Source of the DNA: Pseudanabaena sp. FACHB-2040
GTDB taxonomy: Bacteria; Cyanobacteriota; Cyanobacteriia; Phormidesmidales; Phormidesmidaceae
DNA length: 64,000 nt
Assembly: GCF_014696715.1 (NCBI RefSeq)
Contig: NZ_JACJQO010000022.1
Location: 558,001 to 622,000, forward strand
Direction of reading: 5' to 3'
Position 1 is the first letter of the stretch. Each line of letters begins with the position of its first letter. Shown here in pieces: positions 11,322-20,311 of this stretch. A model generated the notes under the pieces. That model did not search any database. It had not been told where the DNA came from and was given only the letters and a program-made list of their open reading frames with translations. Made by a program: the position numbers and the translations under genes.

Positions 11322-11777
11322 ATGCAGATTTGGGTAGATGCTGATGCCTGTCCTAACGTGATCAAGGAGATCCTGTTTCGGGCTGCTAAGCGAGCCAGCA
11401 TTTTGACAACGCTAGTGTCGAACCTGGATCTTCAAATTCCGGCATCGCCCTACATTGATGCAGTACAGGTTCGATCTGGGTTTGATGTTGCTGATGGCTA
11501 CATCGTCCAGCACTTACAGGCCGGAGATCTGGTGATTACAGCTGATATTCCTCTGGCGGCGGCGGCGATTGAAAAGGGAGCCTATGCCCTTAATCCACGA
11601 GGTGAGTTCTACAGCGCCGGAAACATTCGAGAGCGGCTGTCGTTGCGAAATTTTATGGACGAACTTCGCAGCGGTGGGGTAGACACAGGCGGGCCTCCTG
11701 CCTTTAACCAGCGCGATCGCCAGGCTTTTGCTAATCAGCTCGATCGATTTTTAGTAAAGCATCGGCCTAGCGGATAG
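11322..11777 (+). CDS. YaiI/YqxD family protein (UPF0178, DUF188)
   Basis: Conserved bacterial protein of 151 residues with a PIN-like or NYN-like acidic core and no firmly established role. The family signature is the opening [17 protein letters not shown], then [26 protein letters not shown] and NPRGEFY...[19 protein letters not shown], all present in order. Acidic residues D6, D8 and D65-type positions could bind metal. Its 3' end overlaps by 11 bp the 3' end of the repeat-protein gene on the other strand. Confidence 0.9.
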
Positions 11778-12051
11778 ACCAAAACTGCAGCACGCTGAGA
11801 ATGCTGTTCATACTCAAGACCGAGAGCACACTGCCTGCGCTCAAGACACTCAGGATGCTGCCCGCACTACCAATGCTGAGTAGGCTACCGGCGCTGCCGA
11901 TACTGAGAATGCTGCCGGTGCTGCCAATACTGAGAATGCTGCCCGCACTGCCTAAGCTCAAAATGCTGCGGTAACTGCCACGACTGAGAATGCCCCGCGC
12001 TAGTAGCGGCCGGTTTCTATCTGAATGGGTATCTTCTGCGGTTCTATGCAT
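11767..12051 (-). CDS. Small nine-residue repeat protein (GSAGSILSI repeats)
   Basis: A 94-residue protein consisting mostly of seven tandem nine-residue units from residue 25 to 87 with consensus G-S-x-x-S-I-L-S-[ILV] (for example GSAGSILSI). Alternating small and branched hydrophobic residues with a strict period suggest a short beta-solenoid or a membrane-associating zipper (inference). The first 24 residues are polar and basic, with no signal peptide. Similar short repeat proteins with SVLS or SILS units occur in other bacteria, function unknown to me. The repeats are visible as 27-bp units in the DNA and vary mainly at third codon positions, which argues for selection on the protein. It overlaps the YaiI-family gene end to end. 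Confidence 0.7.
11791..11979 (-). repeat. Seven tandem 27-bp units inside the small repeat gene
   Basis: Direct repeats of 27 bp (minus-strand sense ggcagcgccggtagcctact and variants) encode the nine-residue units. Copies three to five are the most alike, indicating recent unit duplication. Confidence 0.85.
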
Positions 12052-18040: not shown

Positions 18041-18748
18041 CTAGGGTTGGGGCTGGGTCGGCAGGAGCGGCTGAATGTATTTCAGCAGAGCCGGGATATC
18101 GCGCTGAAGCGTATCCCAGACAATGTCTAGCTGGACCTGATCGTATTTGTGGGTGAGGATGTCTCGCATCCCCGCAATTTGCTTCCAAGCCACAGTGGGG
18201 TGTTGAGCCCGAAATTCAGGAGATAGTCGCTTAACAGCTTCTCCTAGAATGGCGACCTGATAAAGAATGGCAGAGCGTGTGACCACGTCTGTATCGAGAG
18301 CGGGGCGCGCCAAGTCTTGGGCAATTTGTAAAACAGTTCTGGAGAATTGATCAATATCTAAAAGTGCAGCGCTGTCGCGGGTTGTGCGATCGGCCATAGC
18401 TTTAGAGGGAGCTGAAGCAAGGAATTTGACAGCAGGATCAGCGTACAGAACCGTCGCCGTTTCCAAAATAGCCTGCCGCCGAATCCAGTTGGGGCTGTTT
18501 TCAACAGAGGCTCGGTCTACCAAATCTATGCGGCGATGAACCAAGGCCTCTAGTTCTTCAGCCATTGCGGCCAGTGTGACTAGCGTCGGGTGGGCTTGGG
18601 AGGAAAACGTCACCAGCACATCGAGATCGCTGTCAGGGCGAAAATCTTCCCGGAGCACCGAACCAAACAGCGCTAGCTGCTGCACCTGCCAGCGCTGACA
18701 AAAGGACTGAATTTGCTGGGTAGACAAATCAATGGGAAGCGTTCTCAC
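18041..18748 (-). CDS. MntA-HepT in one polypeptide (nucleotidyltransferase antitoxin fused to HEPN toxin)
   Basis: In type VII systems the MntA antitoxin adds AMP residues to the HepT HEPN RNase and so inactivates it. Residues 1-110 are a minimal nucleotidyltransferase with the G-S-x10-D-x-D motif GSVLREDFRPDSDLDVLV (G29, S30, D41, D43). Residues 118-230 are a HEPN/DUF86 domain with the RNase motif R-x4-H-x-Y as MRDILTHKY (R195, H200, Y202); the tyrosine is the known target of AMPylation in the family. The two are normally separate overlapping genes; here a single frame of 235 residues joins them through ADPAVKFLASAPSKAMAD. Met118 (18397) could be a relic or working internal start of HepT, but no Shine-Dalgarno precedes it. 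All catalytic residues of both parts are present. Confidence 0.87.
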   Translation of the reverse strand: MRTLPIDLSTQQIQSFCQRWQVQQLALFGSVLREDFRPDSDLDVLVTFSSQAHPTLVTLAAMAEELEALVHRRIDLVDRASVENSPNWIRRQAILETATVLYADPAVKFLASAPSKAMADRTTRDSAALLDIDQFSRTVLQIAQDLARPALDTDVVTRSAILYQVAILGEAVKRLSPEFRAQHPTVAWKQIAGMRDILTHKYDQVQLDIVWDTLQRDIPALLKYIQPLLPTQPQP

Positions 18749-18811
18749 AGGCTAGCTCCATCGGTGGGTTTAGACCCGTGATTCAATCCTAGAGGGCCAG
18801 CGCAAAAGGCG

Positions 18812-20311
18812 CTAGCGACGCAGGTATTCAAGAATGCCTTCTGCGATCGCATCGGCAATTTGCATTCTGGTGTTCATGTTTTGGAACCGGGCCGCATCTT
18901 GAGAACCCGTGACAAAGCCGGTTTCCACGAGCACCGCTGGCATAGCGCTGTAGCGCAACACGTAGAAGCGGGCCTGCCGCACGCCGCGATCGCGCATGTC
19001 GGTGCGCCGCAAGACGCTGTTGTGAATCACCTGAGCCAGCCGCTGACCCGAGGAGTAGTAGTAAGTCTCCAGGCCGTTGACTTCAGGGCGACTCATGCTG
19101 ATGGCGTTGGCATGAATGCTGACGAAGATATCAGCCCCAGCTCTTTGGGCGAAGGCCACTCGCGGATCAAGATCGATTTCTCGATCATCAGCCCGGGTCA
19201 TTAGAACGGTCACCCCGGCTTCCTGCAGCCGCTGCTGCACTCGATTGGCAATAGTCAGGTTAATCTCTTTTTCCTGAATGCCAGCAATGCCAACGGCTCC
19301 CGGATCGCGTCCGCCATGCCCCGGATCGAGCACGACAACAAGCTGCCCCTGCGGCACCGAGGGCGGAATGGGCACCGAAGCCGGAGCCGGAGCGCTGGCA
19401 TTGAGAATCTTGGCATCAATGCTGGACTGCAGTAGGCTGCGCTGCACTTCCTCGGCCCGCTGCCGCTCACGGAATAGCCCTACCTGTACCACATTCTGCC
19501 CATCAACCGTAGTGCGGAAAGCTTCGGGTTCAACGGCGCGCACCTGTTGCAGGGTGTTGACGTTGCTGACAGGCACAATCACCCGGTAGTAGGTGCCGCT
19601 GGCCGGGGCGCTAGTGGGTGGCGGCGGCAGAGGATTGGTCGCCTGGGGCGGAATGGTGGGCAGGGGCTGGCCAGCAGGGGTGGCAGGAGCCGGGCTGGCC
19701 GGGTTAGCTCCACCTGATTGGGCCAACGATGGCCCAGCAGCGGCAATAGGCACGTTCAGCGGCTCGTCGTGGGTCAGATAGATATGGCCTAGGGTCTGAC
19801 CGTTGAAGGTGCGGCGGGTCATGCGCCAGCCGGGGTTGAGCTGCAGCTTGGCAAAGCCATTAGTGTTGCCGTTGGCGCGGGCAATCTCAATCGGCGGAAT
19901 GGTGTTGCGATCGCGCACCGGGGTAGCCCGCAGCACCAGGTCATTGTTCTGGCGTAGGACCTCCAGCCGATAGCGCAGACCCAAATCTTCGCCATTGACC
20001 CGCAGAGAGTAGCCGTTGCTATCTACCAGGCGGTTGCAGATGCCGGTGAAGTCGAAGTTGAGCAGCAGCGGCTCGACCTGAGTTGGGGCATTACCGGTTT
20101 CCTGCCAGCAGGGGCGCTGATTGCTCAGCTGCTCCAAGATCATTAAGTTGTGTAAAGTACCATTTCGAACCGGGCTGGCAACAGCGATCACACGGCTTTG
20201 GTCGATGTCTTGTTGGCCAAACTGGTTAGCGAGGGTGGGTGACGGTGCGATCGCAAAAGCAGCAGCAGCGGCAGCAGTCAGTGTAGTGAGGCGACGAATC
20301 AAAGGAAACAT
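18812..20311 (-). CDS. N-acetylmuramoyl-L-alanine amidase (AmiC type)
   Basis: Periplasmic zinc amidase that cuts the bond between MurNAc and L-Ala during septal cell-wall splitting. The order is a signal peptide (RRLTTLTAAAAAAFAIAPSPTLAN), a beta-rich N-terminal part similar in place to AMIN domains, a Pro-rich linker at about 200-240, a SPOR-like repeat (VVQVGLFRERQRAEEVQRSL) and the Amidase_3 domain. Zinc and catalytic residues are in VVLDPGHGGRDPGA (His), QEKEINL (Glu), FVSIHANA (His) and AVLVETGFVTG (Glu). Length of 499 residues fits cyanobacterial AmiC proteins. The SPOR-like call is moderate; the amidase domain is sure. Confidence 0.92.
   Translation of the reverse strand: MFPLIRRLTTLTAAAAAAFAIAPSPTLANQFGQQDIDQSRVIAVASPVRNGTLHNLMILEQLSNQRPCWQETGNAPTQVEPLLLNFDFTGICNRLVDSNGYSLRVNGEDLGLRYRLEVLRQNNDLVLRATPVRDRNTIPPIEIARANGNTNGFAKLQLNPGWRMTRRTFNGQTLGHIYLTHDEPLNVPIAAAGPSLAQSGGANPASPAPATPAGQPLPTIPPQATNPLPPPPTSAPASGTYYRVIVPVSNVNTLQQVRAVEPEAFRTTVDGQNVVQVGLFRERQRAEEVQRSLLQSSIDAKILNASAPAPASVPIPPSVPQGQLVVVLDPGHGGRDPGAVGIAGIQEKEINLTIANRVQQRLQEAGVTVLMTRADDREIDLDPRVAFAQRAGADIFVSIHANAISMSRPEVNGLETYYYSSGQRLAQVIHNSVLRRTDMRDRGVRQARFYVLRYSAMPAVLVETGFVTGSQDAARFQNMNTRMQIADAIAEGILEYLRR

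Follow-up and report, generated by a model that had tools for sequence, protein, structure and literature searches.

The window, meaning the whole 64,000-nucleotide stretch of DNA analysed here, carries on its minus strand a single open frame of 235 codons in which an MntA half and a HepT half are joined. The gene and its parts are as follows.

18041..18748, minus strand: MntA-HepT fusion gene, 235 amino acids, with a GTG start and a TAG stop
18440..18748, minus strand: MntA (minimal nucleotidyltransferase) half, approximately residues 1-103, by PF01909 and structure match
18389..18439, minus strand: interdomain linker, approximately residues 104-120, with Met118 inside; the block 111-120 has a pLDDT of 59
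18044..18388, minus strand: HepT (HEPN RNase) half, approximately residues 121-235, by PF01934 and structure match
18756..18759, minus strand: GGAG ribosome-binding-like site, 7 nt upstream of the GTG start, by duplex energy

A sequence-only reading of this DNA had described a fused MntA-HepT frame with both active motifs intact. The frame, the motifs and the Pfam matches confirm that description, and its residue numbers for Tyr202 and Met118 are correct, although it left the minus strand unstated. On the plus strand of 18041-18748, the matching register is interrupted by many stops. The GGAG element has a duplex energy of -5.6, where null sites average -1.9 and 13% of them do as well, and a promoter scan found none. 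The upstream neighbour on the same strand (18812-20311, minus), 63 nt away, joins DUF3747 to an Amidase_3 domain and could be co-transcribed with the fusion. In 19 relatives, no MNT-HEPN gene was found to flank the neighbouring amidase within flanks of at most 1.5 kb, some of which were ended by the contig. Elsewhere in the window, a 94-amino acid frame of repeated units lies at 11767-12051 on the minus strand and has no Pfam match.

Within the fusion protein, PF01909 (NTP_transf_2) matches residues 11-84 with an E-value of 2.9e-13 and PF01934 (HepT-like) matches residues 137-226 with an E-value of 2.1e-22. Since both domain matches are significant in one protein, the motifs are not there by chance. 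The GSx10DxD motif of the MntA half reads GSVLREDFRPDSDLD from residue 29, supplying Asp41 and Asp43, to which Asp75 is added, while the Rx4HxY motif of the HepT half reads RDILTHKY from residue 195, with Arg195, His200 and Tyr202. Scores against the NCBIfam MntA profile NF047752 (46.2 bits) and against NF047751 (32.9 bits) fall below the 60-bit equivalog cut-offs, and the equivalog label is therefore not claimed for the fusion. The MNT half is also matched by the PADLOC candidate PDC-S09. Type VII HepT/MntA systems are made of two separate proteins; here both halves lie in one frame, with MNT first.

An AlphaFold2 model built from 14 aligned sequences has a pLDDT of 91.7 and a pTM of 0.82, and in it the linker is probably flexible. 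The MNT half matches the MNT antitoxin 8xeo_B with a Z score of 10.3. For the HEPN half, the matches are to HepT 6m6u_G (Z 11.7) and to the HEPN toxin of 7ae8 (Z 11.3), and as HEPN halves are helical bundles, a Z near 11 is not decisive alone. Sequence profile matches reach 5yep and 6m6u, in agreement with the structure matches. AadA is among the Foldseek matches of the whole chain (E 2.2e-4), which would fit a small-molecule nucleotidyltransferase of the AadA or kanamycin nucleotidyltransferase kind, with the HEPN half as substrate-binding domain. That identity is extremely improbable, since matches to AadA cover both domains only at an rmsd of about 10, with the placement of the domains in the model uncertain, and each half on its own resembles MNT or HepT more closely. 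The Rx4HxY motif, moreover, is intact here but typically missing from the HEPN of AadA/KNTase-type fused proteins (PMC3710099).

Whether one frame reflects one gene depends on how the separate pairs are arranged. In most of the placeable separate pairs of the subfamily, the ATG of hepT falls within mntA, 11-14 nt before its end and in another frame, so a small indel in sequencing or assembly could join two normal genes. In the window gene, however, the stretch from the end of the MNT half (VLYA) to the HEPN core (RDSAALL) is longer by about 20 residues than in separate pairs. A single-base joining of an overlapping pair would leave almost no linker, which argues against a read error, although an ancestral pair without overlap plus one base error could still give the window frame. 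The contig is large (650,076 bases) in a good assembly of 44 contigs, from a genome estimated to be 99.95% complete, and fusions of the group called clade A below are found in several genera. The window fusion is thus probably not a read error, and an artefactual frameshift is judged very improbable here; the short-linker fusion L042, from a draft 69% complete, could be such a case.

The sequence-only reading had proposed a search for fused homologues and had named a lack of relatives among the things that would speak against it. Fused homologues were found, so this half of the objection falls away. In the order sample, an intact fused frame is present in 8 of 63 genomes: the window, L026 and six members of clade A (L008, L009, L010, L012, L013 and L015). 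A seventh member, L045, comes from the class sample (n = 388), which also yielded L042 as a further fusion. Both motifs are intact in all order-level fused frames except that of L013, where Ser replaces the motif Arg. The closeness of these proteins to the window protein is limited, and none of the orthologues found for its gene is very close. L042 is 53% identical to the window protein over its length, whole-protein identity with the clade A members from its own family is 32-39%, and its halves reach up to 58% (MntA) and 57% (HepT) identity with separate proteins. The source genome itself also has separate mntA/hepT pairs and a lone mntA. One separate-pair hepT of the source genome (contig C16, L004:1588-1863) ends right after its motif (RNIVAHRYD, then a stop) and looks truncated or frameshifted.

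Several other candidates were set aside. Outside cyanobacteria, the one-piece matches on Aeromonas and Delftia plasmids carry no annotation beyond a DUF86 gene of normal length and were rejected as fusions. A number of long open frames surrounding MNT or HEPN matches likewise proved not to be fusions; the one that is, L115:470-1249 (minus strand) from another cyanobacterium, has neither GSx10DxD nor Rx4HxY. Viral contigs yielded only a handful of single genes or separate pairs, with no fusion among them.

Trees of the two halves indicate that joining happened repeatedly. The fused label changes four times on the MNT tree and five times on the HEPN tree, one of the latter being the lone HEPN half L069; three and four changes, respectively, are forced by supported branches. 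Grouping the window with clade A is rejected by the AU test for the HEPN half (p 0.0003) but not for the MNT half (p 0.30), so a single origin for all fusions is rejected on the HEPN side. The window and L042 together are not rejected (p 0.20 and 0.39), and these two could therefore share one origin. The safe statement from these trees is that the fusions would have arisen about three times or more.

Conservation was followed through the positions that separate pairs conserve at 90% or more, of which there are 26 in MNT and 16 in HEPN (42). The window protein retains 25 of 26 and 16 of 16 (41/42), L042 is similar, and separate pairs retain on average 96% of the MNT and 93% of the HEPN positions. 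The full-length dN/dS among clade A members L010, L012 and L013 is 0.08-0.18, so part of clade A is under purifying selection across its whole length; between the window gene and L042 the ratio is saturated.

Other fusions have fared differently. L115 keeps 17 of 26 MNT and 8 of 16 HEPN positions (25/42) and looks like a decayed or repurposed fusion. L069:1498-1830 (minus strand) is a HEPN half alone, with no MNT half, and is closest to the fused L012; judged by that similarity, it is a remnant of a fused gene. Together with the Arg to Ser change in L013, these losses indicate that some fusions decay, which counts against a single-chain toxin. They would suit a domesticated or permanently silenced fusion, in which linkage leaves the toxin permanently AMPylated and the protein survives as a harmless relic or as a regulator nearing decay, and domestication of fused MNT-HEPN proteins was proposed by Anantharaman et al. 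in 2013 (PMC3710099). For the window protein such a fate is considered unlikely, though by no means negligible, as its 41 of 42 conserved positions match the separate pairs rather than the 25 of 42 of L115.

The functional expectations for the fusion come from systems made of two proteins. In Shewanella oneidensis, HepT-MntA (SO_3166/SO_3165; 5yep, 6m6u-w) has the same two domains, GSx10DxD, Rx4HxY and acceptor Tyr. There, MntA modifies the Tyr of Rx4HxY with three AMPs, which silences the RNase, and losing Tyr AMPylation weakens neutralisation of HepT (PMC7641770). The Legionella pneumophila HEPN-MNT proteins (8xeo, 8xeh) and those of 7ae2-7ae9 likewise share folds and motifs with the fusion but are separate proteins. 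In Legionella, HEPN is said to stay unmodified when ATP is low, and degradation of the labile MNT is proposed to activate it (PMC11586414); the window fusion cannot lose its MNT half in this way without a cut. The sequence-only reading held that described systems consist of two chains, which is not fully right, as MNT-DUF86 HEPN fusions were on record by 2013. In Table 1 of Anantharaman et al. 2013, the DUF86 HEPN is noted as "occasionally fused to MNT" (PMC3710099). Those fusions combine MNT with a DUF86 HEPN as here, but their HEPN halves are typically without RNase residues (PMC3710099), which are intact in the window. MNT-DUF86 fusions are thus already known, and the unusual point is the intact RNase motif in a fused HEPN. 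A literature search that was thin on subscription papers turned up no work on a fused MntA-HepT in which the motifs are intact.

On balance, the window fusion is most likely a single-chain type VII toxin-antitoxin, in which the MntA half would AMPylate Tyr202 and silence the RNase. Both intact motifs, the 41 of 42 conserved residues, the fold matches, the recurrence of fusions and the dN/dS of three clade A members support this reading. That the protein acts as an RNase, that Tyr202 is AMPylated and that this neutralises the toxin are inferred from the Shewanella and Legionella work. The N-terminal MntA domain would use ATP to transfer AMP onto Tyr202 of the C-terminal HEPN RNase, either that of its own chain or that of the partner in a HEPN dimer, so that the RNase would be silenced while being made. 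Since a fused antitoxin cannot be lost separately, modification in cis or inside the HEPN dimer would be the simplest account, and control would then rest with ATP, AMP removal or a linker cut. Active toxin may arise if self-AMPylation fails, through low ATP or a damaged MNT half, or once the AMP is taken off or the flexible linker is cut.

Stoichiometry counts against the single-chain reading. Known complexes are toxin-rich, namely HepT6:MntA2 in Shewanella (PMC7641770) and HEPN4:MNT1 in Legionella (PMC11586414), whereas one chain replaces the 6:2 assembly of two Shewanella proteins with a forced 1:1 ratio. Toxin excess could be restored if the gene gave two products, the full-length fusion and a free HepT started at Met118. 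In the window, as in all seven clade A fusions, a Met stands 5-7 residues ahead of the HEPN core despite a variable linker, and in L009 and L013 it is preceded by strong ribosome-binding-like sites within the top 1% of control positions. Ahead of Met118 in the window there is no such site (duplex energy +1.2, with 96% of control positions binding equally well or better), the old hepT start carries no Met in L042 or L026, and the Met may be a mere relic of that start. Restart at Met118, as raised in the sequence-only reading, therefore gains from the conserved Met in clade A but lacks a ribosome-binding site to back it in the window gene, and is regarded as improbable.

Self-contained toxin-antitoxin chains have precedents in EzeT of E. 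coli and Slr1999 (HicA-HicB) of Synechocystis, each a single polypeptide proposed to be self-regulated (PMC4963859). Their domains are unrelated to those of the fusion, and covalent modification of the toxin is not described there (PMC4963859). The usual account of toxin-antitoxin activation is that a labile antitoxin is lost, and a fusion with intact sites cannot work so. As a single-chain type VII system, it would be a natural experiment that separates the two controls proposed for type VII systems, AMPylation that depends on ATP and turnover of the antitoxin. Tentatively, cyanobacteria may hold a class of self-AMPylating RNase toxins that arose several times, with both active sites under selection, an ATP-dependent switch and no free antitoxin. 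The window fusion itself is an exception to the published rule that MNT-fused HEPN domains typically are without catalytic residues.
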